The position numbers were made by a program, and so were the translations under genes. Positions 43,213 through 50,248 of a stretch of DNA of 64,000 nt are shown piece by piece. The notes below the pieces were generated by a model. The model saw nothing but the letters and a program-made list of their open reading frames with translations, searched no databases and had not been told where the DNA came from. This DNA comes from Armatimonadota bacterium (GTDB lineage: Bacteria > Armatimonadota > Fimbriimonadia > Fimbriimonadales > Fimbriimonadaceae), in the NCBI GenBank assembly GCA_016125185.1, contig WGMG01000004.1, positions 62,001 to 126,000 of the forward strand. The letters are read 5' to 3'. Position 1 is the first letter of the stretch. Each line of letters opens with the position of its first letter.

Positions 43213-43695
43213 TTAGGCGGCGAGACTGATCTTCGTTTCGCGAAGGCTAACGTTGACCTCGATCGCACCAACTCCGTCGAAGTTGAACGGAATCACGAGC
43301 GTCGGGACGTTGAAGGTCGAAATTCGAATGCTGTTTCCGCGAACCAGCGTCGGCGGCGTAATGTTGCACACGATTCCCTTCGTGGAGAAGATCGACGAGC
43401 TGTTACCCGTGATCATGTTGCCAAGCTCCGAGATCGCCGAAGCCACCATCTGGTCGAACACGCGCGGCGCGGTACCCAGCATCAACTCGGCAATCTTCAT
43501 CGCGGTGTCCTTGGACATGCTATACATGACCAGGCCCTCGAGATCTCCATTAACTCCGCACAGGATGTTAACGGGAAGAGCGGTAAAAAGAACTTGCTTC
43601 GCCGAAAGTTCTCCTCTTTGGGGCGGTGTGCCCATAATCATCTCCGCGACCGAGGTTGCGGCCTCAGCAAACGGAGCAATGTACTCTGCTTTCAT
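43213..43695 (-). CDS. cheX: CheX-type CheY-P phosphatase
   Basis: A 160-residue CheC/CheX-family protein that dephosphorylates CheY-P. The catalytic E-x-x-N is seen in ISELGNMITG (about residues 88-97). One such motif and the short length fit CheX rather than CheC. It closes the minus-strand operon HDOD-cheB-cheR-cheY-cheX and lies 38 bp after cheY. Its natural target is presumably the adjacent CheY. Confidence 0.88.
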   Translation of the reverse strand: MKAEYIAPFAEAATSVAEMIMGTPPQRGELSAKQVLFTALPVNILCGVNGDLEGLVMYSMSKDTAMKIAELMLGTAPRVFDQMVASAISELGNMITGNSSSIFSTKGIVCNITPPTLVRGNSIRISTFNVPTLVIPFNFDGVGAIEVNVSLRETKISLAA

Positions 43696-43733
43696 CTATA
43701 TATTCGTTCCCCTAAAGTCGGTGGGTCTTCGCA

Positions 43734-44096
43734 TCACGCCGCGTGACGCTTGATGACCTCAATAACCTTATCGGCTTGAAAAGGCTTAGTTATGAACTCT
43801 TTTGCACCGGCCTGAAGAGCTTCGACCATCAAATTTTGCTGTCCCATCGCCGAGCACATGACCACGACAGCCTCTGGATTTGAACCTCGAATAGCCTTGA
43901 GAGCCTCGATTCCATCCATCTCCGGCATAGTGATGTCCATGGTGACCAAATCGGGCTTCAGGTCCCCATAAAGAGCTACAGACTCAAGACCGTTGGCCGC
44001 CTCACCGACGACTTCGTAACCGGCATCCGTTAGGATGCGCTTCAATGTGACGCGCATGAAAAGCGCGTCATCCGTAATTAAGATGCGTTTCGCCAT
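43734..44096 (-). CDS. cheY: CheY-like single-domain response regulator
   Basis: A 120-residue receiver domain. The acidic pair (ITDD, residues 7-10), phospho-acceptor Asp in LVTMDITMPEMDG (about 54), switch Ser in VVMCSAMG and Lys in FITKPF (about 104) are all present. It overlaps the end of cheR by 19 bp. Without a CheA gene nearby, its kinase must be encoded elsewhere. Confidence 0.93.
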   Translation of the reverse strand: MAKRILITDDALFMRVTLKRILTDAGYEVVGEAANGLESVALYGDLKPDLVTMDITMPEMDGIEALKAIRGSNPEAVVVMCSAMGQQNLMVEALQAGAKEFITKPFQADKVIEVIKRHAA

Positions 44097-44890
44097 ACTT
44101 TTTCCTCGCTAGGTTTTTTGTAGAAATACGGTCTCGGACATTCGAAACCAATCTCCCTGGTGTTGTAGATGCGCTCGCTGCTCCCCAAGAAGAGGTAGCC
44201 ACCAGGGCGGAGCGCATTGTAGAACCGCTGAAAGATCTGATCTTTCGCCTCGTCGACGAAGTAGATCAGGACGTTGCGGCAGATGATCAGGTCGTAACCC
44301 ACGCCGTAGCTATCTGCCAGCAAATTGTGTTTTTGGAAGGTCAAAAAGTCCTTCAGTTTTGGGATGACGTTCGCGCCGTCCTCGGTAACCTCGAAGTACT
44401 TTTCGAACTCCTGCGGAATCATCCTCGCTTCCATGCGATTGAGGAATCCCCGCTTGGCCTGGGCCATCGCCGTCTCGTCGATGTCCGTGCAGACGATCTT
44501 GTGCGGTCGGCCGGGAGCAAATTTGTCCAGCACCGCCGCCAGGCTATACGCCTCGGCCCCGGTCGAACATCCCGCGCTCCACGCACGGATCGATCTTCCC
44601 CCGTCGGCCAGTTCGTGCTTCACGATCTTCTCGAGGTCGCGCCACAGCTCTGGGTTTCGGAAGACCTCGGTGACGTTGATCGCCAACTTGTCCAGGAACC
44701 ATCGCCGCTCGTCTTCGCTCTTCAGCACCAGGTCCACTAGAGCTTCGAAGCCGGGCATTCGCCGCTGTTCGCCCAGCATCAGAATCTGTCGCTGAAGCTG
44801 GTTTTGCTTGTAGAGGTTGAAGTCGATCCCCGTCTGCGTTTTCAGCTTTCGGTAGAAATCGGCCCACTGAATGTCATTAGGCGCTTGCAC
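44078..44890 (-). CDS. cheR: CheR-type protein-glutamate methyltransferase
   Basis: A 270-residue CheR, which methylates chemoreceptor glutamates with SAM. The N-terminal helical domain (FYRKLKTQTGIDFNLYK) is followed by the SAM site AWSAGCSTGAEAYSLA and YDLIICRNVLIYF. GTG 44890 is chosen because a perfect AGGAGG lies 5 bases upstream, inside the cheB 3' end. The resulting length is standard, and the overlap with cheB is 14 bp. Confidence 0.92.
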   Translation of the reverse strand: MQAPNDIQWADFYRKLKTQTGIDFNLYKQNQLQRQILMLGEQRRMPGFEALVDLVLKSEDERRWFLDKLAINVTEVFRNPELWRDLEKIVKHELADGGRSIRAWSAGCSTGAEAYSLAAVLDKFAPGRPHKIVCTDIDETAMAQAKRGFLNRMEARMIPQEFEKYFEVTEDGANVIPKLKDFLTFQKHNLLADSYGVGYDLIICRNVLIYFVDEAKDQIFQRFYNALRPGGYLFLGSSERIYNTREIGFECPRPYFYKKPSEEKVWRNAS

Positions 44891-45923
44891 GTCGACCTCC
44901 TGAGAGCGCTGCGGTGATCGCCGCACCCATTTGGTCGATCGGAAACTCGCCATCGGTTGCACCGGCTTCTTTTGCCGACTTGGGCATGCCGTACACAACG
45001 CAGGTCTGGTCACTTTCGCCGAAAATCGTGGCGCCCGCCTTCTTCAGGGCCAAGGCCCCAGCGGTACCGTCTCGACCCATTCCGGTCAAGATCACGCCCA
45101 GCACGTTCGCACCGATGTACTTCGCCGCCGACTCAAACGTGTAGTCCGCACATGGCTTCACGCCGTTGCGATCCGGTCCGTCATTCAACAAAATCTTGGT
45201 TGCGTTCACGAGTTCCAGGTGCTTGCCGCCCGGGGCCATCAGGGCCACGCCTGGCTCCAGCGCGTCTTCCTGGTTCGCCTCGCGCACCTTAAAGGCACCG
45301 ATGCGGTCCAGTCGCTCGGCTAGGCTCTTGGTAAATCCGGCGGGCATGTGCTGGACGATCACGCACGGGACCGTCATGTTTTTGGGCAGCGATTCGAACA
45401 ACGTCATCAGCGCCTTCGGTCCGCCCGTCGAACTGGCGATCAAAAGCGTTTTCTGCGAGGTCGGCGCGCGCATTTCGGTTCGCGGTGTGCGAACGACCGG
45501 AGCTGGCCGAACCGGCGCCGGGCGGAATTTAGCCCGCGAAGCGGCACGAATCTTCGGAATCAGTTCCTGAAAAATTGCGGACAAGGACTCGCCCGTGATG
45601 GCTTCCGGCTTGCACGCAAAGTCCACCGCGCCGATTTCCAGCGCGAGAACCGTCGCATCTGCGCCAATCGAGGTCAGCGTCGAGAACATGACCGCCGGGG
45701 TCGGCGCCTCCGACATCAGCTCCTTCAGAGCGATGAGGCCGTTCTTGCGCGGCATCTCGATGTCGAGCGTCACCACGTCGGGCTTTAGCTCGCGCACCTT
45801 GGCGAGGACTTCCTCGCCGCTCGATGCGGTTCCGCAGACCTCCATATCCGACTCTCGATTGATCGCGTCCGAGATCACTCGGCGCATAAAAATCGAGTCG
45901 TCAACGACGAGAACGCGGGTCAC
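44877..45923 (-). CDS. cheB: CheB-type protein-glutamate methylesterase/glutamine deamidase
   Basis: A 348-residue CheB with an N-terminal receiver domain (VDDSIFMRR; acceptor Asp in DVVTLDIEMPRKNG) and a C-terminal methylesterase. The Ser-His-Asp triad is visible in IASSTGGPKAL, VIVQHMPAGF and LTGMGRDGTAGA. It removes methyl groups from receptors or, in alternative systems, other targets. The start is GTG 45923, 2 bp after the HDOD stop. Confidence 0.95.
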   Translation of the reverse strand: MTRVLVVDDSIFMRRVISDAINRESDMEVCGTASSGEEVLAKVRELKPDVVTLDIEMPRKNGLIALKELMSEAPTPAVMFSTLTSIGADATVLALEIGAVDFACKPEAITGESLSAIFQELIPKIRAASRAKFRPAPVRPAPVVRTPRTEMRAPTSQKTLLIASSTGGPKALMTLFESLPKNMTVPCVIVQHMPAGFTKSLAERLDRIGAFKVREANQEDALEPGVALMAPGGKHLELVNATKILLNDGPDRNGVKPCADYTFESAAKYIGANVLGVILTGMGRDGTAGALALKKAGATIFGESDQTCVVYGMPKSAKEAGATDGEFPIDQMGAAITAALSGGRRASA

Positions 45924-45925
45924 AG

Positions 45926-46780
45926 TTAAGCCGCCTCCGCGAAGGCGCTTCCACCCGCTTCACTCAACTTGCTGAGGGCTTCGTCCAGCCACTCATTCAA
46001 TACGTCTGCCTCAACACCAAGCCTTTCGAACGCGGCCTCGTCGCGGACGTAGAACGTTCCCGGCAGGTTCTCATGGATGCCCCGCTCGCGAACCATGATG
46101 TCCGCGATGTGGATGATGTCGGTCAGCACGTCGGTCTCTTCCATCTCCGAAGGGCGATGGTGGAATCGGATGCTTCGGCAGTATGCCTTGGGCAGGTTCC
46201 AGCTCTCAGCCAGAGTTGCGCCCAGTTCGGCATGGTCAAAACTCAAGGTCTCTCGCTCGATCTGGTCGAATGGCTTATCTCCGGCCAGGCTCGTCTGGGT
46301 CATCGCCGTAAATTCGTCTTCAAGCGTCAGGTACAGGGCCACGGTGCCGATGTCGTGAAGCAGACCGATACAAAATGCCTGCTCCGCGTCCATGTCGGTT
46401 TTGCGCATCGCCAGCATCTTGCTGAAGTAAGCGCAAGCCAGACAGTGGTTCCAAAGGTGCTTGGGGCTCAGGCCCTTGCCTTTAAGGGCGATCTGAAGCC
46501 AAGGAAAACTGGCGGCCACGAGGGAAAGGCTCTTGGTGGTGCGCATGCCGAGAACGACAACCGCTTCCTGAATCGAGTGGACGTCTCGCGCCATTCCGTA
46601 AAAGGCAGAGTTTGCCAATCGCAGAACGCGAGCGCTGAGGCTCGGATCGCGAGAAAGCGTCGCCGCAACCGTCGAAGCGCTTGAATCCGCTTGGTCGGCG
46701 ATGCGAATCACCTCGAATGCCACTTCCGGCATCGACGGCAGATCGCTCGCTTTTTTGATGACTTCTTTAATGTCCCACAT
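45926..46780 (-). CDS. HDOD-domain protein
   Basis: A protein of about 284 residues with an HDOD domain: LPSMPEVAFEVIRIAD, LSRDPSLSARVLRLANSAFYG, and the degenerate HD-like LLHDIGTVALYLTL. HDOD proteins act in signal transduction, often with chemotaxis-type or c-di-GMP modules. It is the first gene of the che-like operon. ATG 46780 is preferred to a GTG at 46804, because the HDOD fold begins right after it. Confidence 0.88.
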   Translation of the reverse strand: MWDIKEVIKKASDLPSMPEVAFEVIRIADQADSSASTVAATLSRDPSLSARVLRLANSAFYGMARDVHSIQEAVVVLGMRTTKSLSLVAASFPWLQIALKGKGLSPKHLWNHCLACAYFSKMLAMRKTDMDAEQAFCIGLLHDIGTVALYLTLEDEFTAMTQTSLAGDKPFDQIERETLSFDHAELGATLAESWNLPKAYCRSIRFHHRPSEMEETDVLTDIIHIADIMVRERGIHENLPGTFYVRDEAAFERLGVEADVLNEWLDEALSKLSEAGGSAFAEAA

Positions 46781-46975
46781 GGCCCATCTATCTTTCTTGA
46801 ACACTCGTCCAAGGAACCCTCAGGACCTAAGTGCCACATAGGGGATAAGCCCCTGCTAAGTACAAATACTAGGACCGGGATTTTTGGCACACTTCTTGCT
46901 AGACCGTCGTTCTGCGAGGGATGTAAACGTTCTCTCACTTTGCAGGAATCGCCCGCCTTGGTAAACTATTTCGAT

Positions 46976-47386
46976 ATGGCACCGCTGGACTTTGCACTTG
47001 TCCGCCATGCACTCAACCTGGCCAAGAAAACGGGCATGGACGAGGTCGAACTAGAGCTTGGAGAATCCAAATTCCGAGCCGTCTTGGATGAGAAGGCCAA
47101 GAAGCCCGCAAAGGCCGCCTCCGCTGCACCCGCCGGAAAGGCCGAAGAACCGGCCGTCACCGCCAAACCCATCAAGAGCCACAACGTCGGCATCTTCCGT
47201 CAGGGCGACCACGCCATGAAGGTTGGCGACGAAATCAAAGTCGGCGACATCGTCGGCTCCGTGGTGGCTCTCGGCATTGCGAACGACGTGGTGTCGTCGG
47301 TGCAGGGCAAAATTTCCGAGGTCAACGTCCTCGACTCCGAAACCGTCGAGTACGGTCAGGTTCTCGCGCTTGTGGAGGTCGAGTGA
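46976..47386 (+). CDS. BCCP-like protein lacking the biotin-acceptor lysine
   Basis: A 136-residue protein with the full layout of acetyl-CoA carboxylase biotin carrier. The N-terminal motif LVRHALNLAKKTGMDEVELE is followed by an Ala/Pro/Lys-rich linker and a C-terminal biotinyl-like beta-barrel (VGDEIKVGDIVGSVV, ISEVNVLDSETVEYGQVLALVEVE). At the position of the E-A-M-K-M biotinylation motif it reads V-A-L-G-I: residue 100 is Gly (GGC at 47273-47275), not Lys. It therefore cannot be biotinylated at the usual site. It precedes accC with a pilin-like gene in between and overlaps that gene by GTGA. It may be a structural subunit or a diverged carrier. Confidence 0.85.
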   Translation: MAPLDFALVRHALNLAKKTGMDEVELELGESKFRAVLDEKAKKPAKAASAAPAGKAEEPAVTAKPIKSHNVGIFRQGDHAMKVGDEIKVGDIVGSVVALGIANDVVSSVQGKISEVNVLDSETVEYGQVLALVEVE

Positions 47387-47748
47387 AACAGCGCGGCCAG
47401 ACCCTGGTCGCTAGCTTGGTCGTTGTCGCGATCATCCTCGTCGCCGTCGTCATCTTCATGCGCGGCACGGGCGACGCCAAGCCGACGATGAAGGCCGATG
47501 GCCGCGGCAAAACCGTGCTGGGTAACGCCAAAGCCAGCGCCGAAGACGAGGTCTGTCGAAGCAATCTGATGCAGGTTCGCCAACTTCTTGAAGTTCAAAA
47601 GGCGACCGACGAAGACTTCAAACCTACCTCGGTGGACGATATCCCCGGTGCAAAAAGTGTGTCACACTGTCCTGTCGGGAAAGAGGCATACGTCATCGAC
47701 GAGTCGGGAAAAATCCACTGCCCACATCTAGGACACGAAAAGTTTTAA
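47383..47748 (+). CDS. pilin-like small membrane protein between accB-like gene and accC
   Basis: A 121-residue protein starting at GTG, overlapping both neighbours (GTGA upstream, TAATG downstream). The N-terminus KQRGQTLVASLVVVAIILVAVVIF resembles type IV prepilin leaders: a short charged leader, Gly, then a hydrophobic helix. However, position +5 is Ala, not Glu. The soluble part has three cysteines, two of them late (HCPVGKEAY and HCPHLG). A pseudopilin role is possible but unproven. Its place between carboxylase genes is odd. Confidence 0.65.
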   Translation: MKQRGQTLVASLVVVAIILVAVVIFMRGTGDAKPTMKADGRGKTVLGNAKASAEDEVCRSNLMQVRQLLEVQKATDEDFKPTSVDDIPGAKSVSHCPVGKEAYVIDESGKIHCPHLGHEKF

Positions 47749-49103
47749 TGCTGAAAAAGGTGCTCATTGCCAATCGCGGGGAAATCGCCTGCCGTGTCAT
47801 TCGCGGCTGCCGCGAACTCGGAGTCAAAAGCGTCGCGATCTACTCGGAGGCCGACCGGGATAGCCTTCACGTCAAGCTCGCCGACGAAGCTATCTGCGTC
47901 GGTGCTGGTTCCAACTCCGACTCCTATCTCAACCTTGCCAACGTCCTCATGGCCACCCAGATCAGCGGAGCGGAGGCCGTTCACCCCGGCTATGGTTACT
48001 TCAGCGAGCGGGCCAACTTCGCGGTCGCGCTCGAAGCCCTTGGTGTCAAATTCATCGGTCCGCCAACCGGCGCGATCGAGGCGATGGGCGACAAAGCCAG
48101 CGCCAAAAAAGCCGCCATTGCCGTGAAGTGTCCGGTCGTCCCCGGCTCCGACGGTCCAGTCGCAACCGACATCGAGGCCCTCAAGATCGCCGAAAAGATC
48201 GGTTACCCGGTTCTCCTCAAGGCCGTCGCCGGTGGCGGCGGACGAGGCATCCGCAAGATCAACGCCCCCGACGAACTGCCGGATGCGTGGAAGATTGCGA
48301 CTGCCGAGGCCCAAGCGTCGTTCGGCTCCGGCGAAATGCTCGTCGAGAAGTTCGTCGAGAATCCGCGCCACGTCGAAATCCAGGTCTTCGGCGACCAGCA
48401 CGGCAACATGGTCTACCTCGGCGAGCGCGAATGCTCGATCCAAAACCTGCGCCACCAAAAAATCGTCGAAGAGGCTCCGTACGCCCAACTGCCCGAGCGC
48501 ATCCGCAAGAAGATGGGCGAGGCCGCGGTGCGAGTGGCCAAGAGCGTTGGCTACCAAAACGCCGGTACGGTCGAATTCCTTGTGGACGATAAGTTTAACT
48601 TTTACTTCCTCGAAATGAACACAAGACTTCAGGTCGAACACCCGGTCACGGAAGAGATCACCGGCTACGATCTGGTTCACATGATGCTGAAGACGGCGAG
48701 CGGCGAAAAGCTCCCGATCACGCAGAAGAACATCGAACTGAAGGGTCACTCCATCGAGGTCCGCGTCACCGCCCAAGACCCCGACAACGATTTCGCCCCT
48801 TCCACCGGAAAGATCACGGGCTGGCGCGCGCCGATGGGCCGCGGCGTCCGTATGGAGAGCCACTGCTACGCGGGCCTGACCGTCTCCCCGTTCTACGACC
48901 CGCTTCTTGCTAAGCTGATCGTCTGGGGCGAGGACCGCGCCGACGCGGTCACCAAGCTCCAAACCGCCCTGCACGAGTTTGAGGTCGAAGGCATCGCCAC
49001 GAACATCCCGTTCCTACGACGGCTGTGCGCAACCCCGTCCTGGATCGAAGGGAAGTTCGACACCGGCTTCGTGCCGAAGTTCCTGGACGGAGAGGCTTCC
49101 TAG
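47748..49103 (+). CDS. accC: biotin carboxylase subunit of acetyl-CoA carboxylase
   Basis: A 451-residue ATP-grasp biotin carboxylase. KVLIANRGEIACRVIR opens the protein, the glycine-rich loop GGGGRGIRKI is at about residue 163, and EMNTRLQVEHPVTEE at about 289. The block usually read as ECSxQRRHQK reads ECSIQNLRHQK here, one residue longer. RxxAEDP reads RVTAQDP. These are near the ATP/bicarbonate site. The length is typical. The neighbouring carrier lacks its lysine, so the biotin partner may be encoded elsewhere. Confidence 0.92.
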   Translation: MLKKVLIANRGEIACRVIRGCRELGVKSVAIYSEADRDSLHVKLADEAICVGAGSNSDSYLNLANVLMATQISGAEAVHPGYGYFSERANFAVALEALGVKFIGPPTGAIEAMGDKASAKKAAIAVKCPVVPGSDGPVATDIEALKIAEKIGYPVLLKAVAGGGGRGIRKINAPDELPDAWKIATAEAQASFGSGEMLVEKFVENPRHVEIQVFGDQHGNMVYLGERECSIQNLRHQKIVEEAPYAQLPERIRKKMGEAAVRVAKSVGYQNAGTVEFLVDDKFNFYFLEMNTRLQVEHPVTEEITGYDLVHMMLKTASGEKLPITQKNIELKGHSIEVRVTAQDPDNDFAPSTGKITGWRAPMGRGVRMESHCYAGLTVSPFYDPLLAKLIVWGEDRADAVTKLQTALHEFEVEGIATNIPFLRRLCATPSWIEGKFDTGFVPKFLDGEAS

Positions 49104-49609
49104 TCTATGAAGCTGGCCAACCTCGCTTTGTCCGCTTCTAACTCTTCTTGCGCTCCCGCCGCCCGCTCACTCCGACCCACTATGGTCGACGCTGGACGGG
49201 AGGAAATTCTTCCACAACTTAGCCAAACTCTGGCGGCACCGACTAGCCTGCGTCAGGTGACCAACCACCCCCAAAGGGGCGGCAGTATCTTAGCCCAGCC
49301 TGAAGGGCTGGGTAGAGACGATCTCAAGCAAAAGTCCAAGGCGACGCAGTCGTCCCGGTCGTTACGACCGCCGAAAACGTCCACGACTGCTCAAACTTCT
49401 TTCGCTCCACCCGCTCTCGACTCGAACCGACCCGCTAGGGTCGAAGCTGGTAGCCAGGGTGTCAAAGCGACCAAAGGGACCGTAGACCCCTGGATAGCTC
49501 CGCAACAGAAAAATTCCAAGGCGACGCAGGAGCCCCGGCGATTATCGCCGCACCATAACGCCACCCCCAAGACTTCCCCATGCCCCTCGCCCTGGATCGA
49601 GGTGCCCCA
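49104..49609 (+). other. gene-free region with hairpins and an R1 module
   Basis: A 506-bp region between accC and nusB. It holds CCCAGCCTGAAGGGCTGGG near 49294-49312, CGGTCGTTACGACCG (49356-49370) and an R1 copy (49429-49549). An open frame spans it but encodes Ser/Pro/Arg-rich sequence with no homology pattern, so I do not call a gene. Confidence 0.65.
49429..49549 (+). repeat. R1 dispersed palindromic module, copy c
   Basis: Opens with GACCCGCTAGGGTC, continues GAAGCTGGTAGCCAGGGTGTC, contains AGACCCCTGGATAGC and closes with GGCGATTATCGCC. It is the same 121-bp length and orientation as the copy at 31322-31442. Confidence 0.75.
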
Positions 49610-50248
49610 ATGACCCCCTTCGCCTGGCGACGAATCGCTCGCGAATGCGCCCTCCGCGCGCTCTACACCGCTGACCTAGGCCAAGGCTCGCTGTCCGACG
49701 CCCTGCACCTCACCATCGACTCGCTCGAAGACGAAGAACAATCCGAAGAACTGGTCAACGGCGTCGAACTCGTCGACGCAACCCTCGATCTCGTCGACCG
49801 CTTCGCAACCGCTCTTGCCGAAGGCACCTGGAAATCCCGCGTCTCGCTCGACCGCGCCATCTCCGCCGCCATCCCCGACTACGACTTCTCCCGCCTCGCC
49901 CTCGTCGATCGCTCCGTCCTGCGGCTCGCCCTCTACGAACTGCAAAACTACCCCTACATTCCGCCCGCGGTCACCCTCAACGAGGCCATCGAAATGGCCA
50001 AAAAATACTCGACCACCGAGAGCGGAAAATTCGTCAACGGCGTGCTCCACACGCTCCTCAAACAGACCGAAAAGGCGAATTACGACCCCAAGACCGCGCC
50101 CAAAGACCCCGATTTGGGTGAAATAGAAAAGATCATGCGCACTCCTGAGCCCGTTGTCGAGGAGGAGACCGTCGACGCTGACTCGGAAGAAGGCAAGATC
50201 GCCAAGCGCTACGGGGTTTGGAAAGTGAAAGGAGACGAAAAAGAATGA
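49610..50248 (+). CDS. nusB: NusB-family transcription antitermination protein with acidic tail
   Basis: A 212-residue NusB, which binds boxA RNA and NusE in antitermination of rRNA operons. The family pattern ARECALRALYTADL opens it, and IPDYDFSRLALVDRSVLRLALYEL and PPAVTLNEAIEMAKKYSTTESGKFVNGVLHTLLK are diagnostic. About 55 residues beyond the usual end are acidic and disordered-looking (VEEETVDADSEEGK). The ATG at 49610 opens the conserved domain. It overlaps folD by ATGA. Confidence 0.92.
   Translation: MTPFAWRRIARECALRALYTADLGQGSLSDALHLTIDSLEDEEQSEELVNGVELVDATLDLVDRFATALAEGTWKSRVSLDRAISAAIPDYDFSRLALVDRSVLRLALYELQNYPYIPPAVTLNEAIEMAKKYSTTESGKFVNGVLHTLLKQTEKANYDPKTAPKDPDLGEIEKIMRTPEPVVEEETVDADSEEGKIAKRYGVWKVKGDEKE

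Follow-up and report, generated by a model that had tools for sequence, protein, structure and literature searches.

An AccB paralogue without the biotin-accepting lysine in the accC operon of Armatimonadota, a candidate non-catalytic subunit of acetyl-CoA carboxylase

The window, that is, the whole 64,000-nucleotide stretch that was analysed, carries the genes accB2, P3 and accC in this order on the same strand (Table 1). The stop codon of accB2 overlaps the start codon of P3 (GTGA at 47383), and P3 and accC overlap by 1 base at 47748. The original prediction had set accB2 beside accC; the two genes do share an operon, but P3 lies between them, which makes accC the second gene downstream of accB2. 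The window AccC scored 639 bits against NF006367/PRK08591 (cut-off 597) and 614 bits against TIGR00514, just below the cut-off of 626.5, whereas the second biotin carboxylase of the genome, on contig C10, scored far lower with 534 (PRK08591) and 496 bits (TIGR00514); the window AccC was therefore taken as ACC-type. The genes nusB and folD follow further downstream of accC, and an accB-accC-nusB-folD style order is familiar from Bacillus-type operons. Between accC and nusB lies an ORF of unusual composition (49107-49613, +) that is perhaps no gene. Divergent from accB2, a cluster of CheX/CheC-, CheY-, CheR-, CheB- and HDOD-like genes occupies 43213-46804 (-); these genes, like nusB and folD, were named from reading the sequence only.

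Table 1. Features of the accB2 operon in the window and related genes elsewhere in the same genome
Feature	Position	Strand	Description
accB2	46976..47386	+	AccB/BCCP-like, Gly100, short thumb, N-terminal helix, Ala/Pro/Lys-rich linker, biotinyl-type barrel; ATG at 46976, stop ending at 47386, product of 136 aa
Codon 100 of accB2	47273..47275	+	GGC (Gly) in place of the biotin-accepting Lys; motif VALGIAND
P3	47383..47748	+	Small membrane protein, prepilin-like N-terminus, conserved C58, C96, C113, H118
accC	47748..49103	+	Biotin carboxylase, ACC-type reading from NF006367/PRK08591 and TIGR00514 scores
Canonical AccB	contig C3:23319-23768		IEAMKVFNE, full thumb
Third biotin carrier	C6:282598-282789		EAMKT; beside an HMG-CoA-lyase-like gene (name given from the sequence)
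Second biotin carboxylase	C10:4049-5392		48% identical to the window AccC
Carboxyltransferase	C6:1489490-1490908		Full-length

The biotin-accepting Lys of the (A/S)MK motif was absent from the AccB2 of the window. Residue 100 is Gly in the motif V-A-L-G-I-A-N-D, as had been predicted, and at least two base changes would be needed to turn its codon into one for Lys. The predicted N-terminal helix and AccB barrel were also borne out: the AlphaFold2 model contained a helix at residues 6-19, a disordered linker at about 40-55 and a biotinyl-type barrel with a pLDDT of about 90 or more, and Pfam Biotin_lipoyl (PF00364) matched with 26.0 bits, above the cut-off of 22.1. In the structure comparison, the model matched E. 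coli BCCP 1bdo with a TM-score of 0.84 on target, and it also matched 4hr7 (E. coli BCCP) and 9a87 (Arabidopsis BCCP1). The full BCCP thumb (YRxPSPxxxPF type) was missing, and the AccB2 thumb, VGIFRQGDHAMK, is 5 residues shorter than TGIYYGSSSPSSPPYVK in the normal AccB of the same genome. Against TIGR00531, AccB2 scored 40.8 bits with a cut-off of 115.2, a weak test given that the true AccB of the genome also fell short at 109.3.

The 121 residues of P3 comprise a long helix at the N-terminus, another helix and a short tail (model pLDDT 92.5), and C58, C96, C113 and H118 were invariant or nearly so among its members. The prepilin N-terminal motif was matched by 27/60 P3 members, and the GspG/ComGC models gave weak matches to a few of them. 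The family libraries held no name for P3 beyond the prepilin-like N-terminus, and a structure search against solved structures yielded nothing significant. A P3-type protein was found between accB2 and accC in about 120 related loci, phylum-wide. In loci L045 and L215, the N-terminus of P3 instead resembles a putative lipoprotein signal.

A second accB with the AMK motif was sought in the genome and found on contig C3 (EAMKVFNE), which rules out AccB2 as the lone AccB of the genome working by exotic chemistry. Contig C6 carries accA, an adjoining second ACC-type carboxyltransferase gene read as accD, and a gene of the BPL/LplA/LipB ligase family. The EAMKT carrier, the C10 biotin carboxylase and the full-length carboxyltransferase on C6 probably form a separate, split acyl-CoA carboxylase. 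The data show that AccB2 is a conserved protein of AccB fold whose canonical site does not allow biotinylation, in a genome that also encodes a normal AccB.

Relatives were found by the P0001 search in 60/61 related genomes, some of the weaker matches being normal AccB. The closest matches on named contigs were from an uncultured Fimbriimonas (74% identity) and an Armatimonadetes bacterium (73%), and on this basis the window was assigned to a Fimbriimonas-like member of the Armatimonadota. Only V71, G72 and G111 were invariant in 45 aligned AccB2 sequences, with L99 and G100 nearly so, and the conservation of Gly100 was confirmed by 50 Gly and 1 Thr among 51 AccB2 proteins of the order. In close pairs, dN was about 0.17-0.22 (near 0.18) and dS above 1.4 (1.5-2.0 or saturated), giving a dN/dS of roughly 0.1; since dN lies far below dS, the protein sequence of AccB2 is under purifying selection. 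This selection and the Gly in 50/51 proteins agree with the earlier view that the gene is not decaying and rule out a sequencing error or a pseudogene.

Profile searches were performed on 291 genomes and 48 chosen genomes, with phyla beyond Armatimonadota thinly sampled. AccB2 and AccB were split by profile score, in agreement with the tree, and 188 distinct sequences were counted. Most sampled genomes encoded two AccB-type proteins, one normal AccB and one AccB2 beside P3 and accC, and AccB2 was present in nearly every Armatimonadota family sampled. The same-strand order accB2-P3-accC was observed at 111/111 loci in which all three genes were found, the window included, and at 6 further loci accB2 stood directly before accC with P3 undetected. 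Neither P3 nor accC was seen in any of the 56 fetched loci of normal AccB (about 1-1.5 kb on either side). The biotin-accepting Lys was present in 56/56 normal AccB proteins vs 33/132 AccB2 proteins (Fisher p 8e-25, a value made optimistic by kinship), and the residues at the AccB2 site were Gly in 66, Lys in 33, Arg in 18, Thr in 4, Ser in 4, Asp in 3, His in 3 and Asn in 1. The Met that precedes the Lys position is often Leu in AccB2. In loci L160, L181 and L183, Asp replaces the biotin Lys (QSMDILNE/QSMDIHNE) and P3 was undetected between accB2 and accC.

AccB2 was placed on one side of a branch, away from the normal AccB of the phylum and the AccB of other phyla, with moderate support (94 in the quick tree; 78/87 in the careful tree with the longest rows removed). 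With the site column excluded from the tree, 15 changes between Lys and non-Lys were counted within AccB2 (bootstrap range 13-15), at least 5 of them on well-supported branches alone, and 17 losses were required if Lys was never regained; these counts are estimates because the proteins are short and many forks lack resolution. That the Lys state changed repeatedly is secure.

Relatives with the same operon that carry Lys, which the original prediction regarded as contrary evidence, do exist in other families (the 33/132 above). Given the repeated loss on the tree and the normal AccB in the same genomes, they mark the origin of AccB2, and the reading as a dummy carrier still stands. With Lys retained by one AccB2 protein in four, some members are possibly working biotin carriers. 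A strict ESMKL motif was kept in AccB2 at loci L092-L094, L097-L099, L158, L166, L167 and L176, from several families. AccB2 proteins of the ESMKL type may, judging from this motif, be working second biotin carriers and so a natural control for the Lys-less members.

Two small genomes from the family to which the window belongs, G152 and G153 (1.5 Mb at 97% completeness), lacked AccB, AccB2 and the ACC-type AccC all together. Their only biotin carboxylase was 47-48% identical to the window AccC, whereas the ACC-type gene in a further genome of this family reached 75%. Joint loss in these reduced genomes fits a role tied to ACC, and it could also be part of a wider loss that includes fatty-acid synthesis. 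Fatty acid synthesis is perhaps impossible in these two organisms, which would possibly rely on a partner.

The best 30 loci of Cyanobacteriota encoded ordinary thumbed EAMK AccB proteins, almost always in a locus that also contained accC; no P3 and no Lys-less AccB was present among them. The larger Cyanobacteriota genomes mostly had one AccB-like match, and many of those of about 1.8-2 Mb had two AccB-type matches. In the collection-wide P0001 scan, full matches outside Armatimonadota were Lys-bearing AccB proteins only; the scan reaches only close relatives, so AccB2-like proteins in other phyla are possible. A PDB sequence search returned mainly biotinyl/lipoyl-domain proteins, and none of the matches listed was annotated as BADC (biotin attachment domain-containing protein, known from plants). 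No description of a bacterial protein of this kind was found in the open-access papers searched, a collection that leaves most subscription papers outside.

Taken together, the best reading of AccB2 is the structural or regulatory dummy carrier that was first proposed. We suggest, with a probability of about 0.6, that it acts as a non-catalytic subunit of AccB type, binding AccC and perhaps AccB and tuning the assembly or activity of ACC. AccB2 would bind AccC and/or AccB via the surfaces that AccB itself uses, and would in this way tune the amount of AccC that pairs with the biotinylated form of AccB; it could promote assembly as a scaffold or reduce activity as a competitor. The ancestral AccB2 would have been a biotinylated carrier, whose Lys presumably became dispensable many times because biotin was carried by the second AccB. 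As a counterpoint, the accB2-accC neighbourhood may reflect an old accB-accC-nusB operon and not present function.

The main alternative is a transcriptional role: in E. coli, AccB uses its N-terminal domain to repress the accBC operon that encodes it (PMC3896788). AccB2 might likewise regulate expression of the accC operon and leave catalysis to the biotin-bearing AccB, and its retained N-terminal helix and its position as the first gene before accC suit such a regulator. The barrel, however, is the best-conserved part of the protein (it holds the three invariant residues V71, G72 and G111) and would be superfluous in an N-terminal regulator, so that we consider this role unlikely. More doubtful still is a function of AccB2 alongside the pseudopilin-like P3, apart from ACC, in a different complex or in some process linked to the membrane. 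P3 is kept between accB2 and accC phylum-wide, and the family libraries recognise in it only a prepilin-like N-terminus, but a prepilin-like or lipoprotein anchor would place the folded part of P3 outside the cytoplasm and away from AccB2; moreover, AccC is encoded in the same operon, and P3 was undetected in the 6 accB2-accC loci mentioned above.

Slightly less probable again is an operon relic, a protein that does little and is kept mainly for its translational coupling to the downstream genes. Overlapping start and stop codons at both junctions and the many losses of Lys are compatible with a relic, but a coupling leader would be expected to drift or shorten, whereas AccB2 retained 74% identity between species with a dN/dS of roughly 0.1 and was present in nearly every sampled genome of the phylum. 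A prosthetic group carried on another residue or via other chemistry, which had also been proposed and for which the fold kept after the loss of Lys might speak, is very improbable: the site is G, R, T, S, D, H or N by lineage (K in the Lys-bearing members), no other reactive residue and no column beyond structural Gly/Val positions is invariant in the order, and the alignments offered no candidate column for a substitute attachment residue.

AccB/BCCP proteins (TIGR00531; E. coli AccB, 4hr7/1bdo) and AccB2 are alike in the N-terminal helix, the linker, the barrel and the place before accC, and AccB2 differs in the missing biotin Lys, the short thumb and the low TIGR00531 score. To our knowledge, none of the accessory subunits of other bacterial acyl-CoA carboxylases is a biotinyl-domain protein. 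These subunits resemble the proposed AccB2 in being non-catalytic and in aiding assembly (mentioned in PMC11926652). YqhY (Asp23 family), encoded in the accBC-yqhY operon of Bacillus, is likewise an accessory protein with a genetic link to ACC (PMC5437119), but it comes from an unrelated protein family and is no AccB paralogue.

The closest parallel is found in plants, where BADCs are BCCP homologues without biotin that lack the AMKL motif and bind BC and BCCP (PMC11926652, PMC7712654). BADCs have been presented as assembly glue (PMC11926652) and as competitors for BC (PMC7712654), and it is disputed whether their effect is to promote assembly or to inhibit (PMC11926652). Plant BADC1-3 and AccB2 are alike as BCCP homologues without the biotinylated Lys in a genome that also has a normal BCCP; in contrast to the plant proteins, AccB2 is bacterial, is encoded in an operon with accC, and lost its Lys many times inside one phylum. 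A Brassica BCCP-like motif of 23 residues, IEQLGGQFPIESD, has Leu-Gly at the Met-Lys position (PMC9578262), as does AccB2 of the Fimbriimonas group. Outside the site, this motif, the one printed motif compared, had a mean identity of 5.8/22 to AccB2 and 7.05/22 to normal AccB. A common origin of AccB2 and plant BADC is unsupported by this single motif, which resembles AccB2 no more than it resembles AccB, and convergence is the simpler reading because many Armatimonadota AccB2 proteins carry Lys.

The best reading by analogy is that AccB2 would work like plant BADC and would have evolved separately. Tentatively, and with slightly less than even confidence, we propose that the phylum has a BADC of its own: an operon-encoded, mostly non-biotinylated AccB paralogue that would assemble with AccC and the true AccB and control ACC, that arose independently of plants, and that shed its site at least 5 and probably about 15 times. 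BCCP look-alikes without biotin that control ACC have been described as a plant speciality, and a 2025 paper considered BADC unique to the plant enzyme (PMC11926652). If the proposal is true, a bacterial counterpart that neighbours accC and exists in one phylum both with and without the Lys would provide a simple system for assembly vs inhibition, and the loss of a catalytic residue while the carrier stays as a subunit would be a repeatable evolutionary step.
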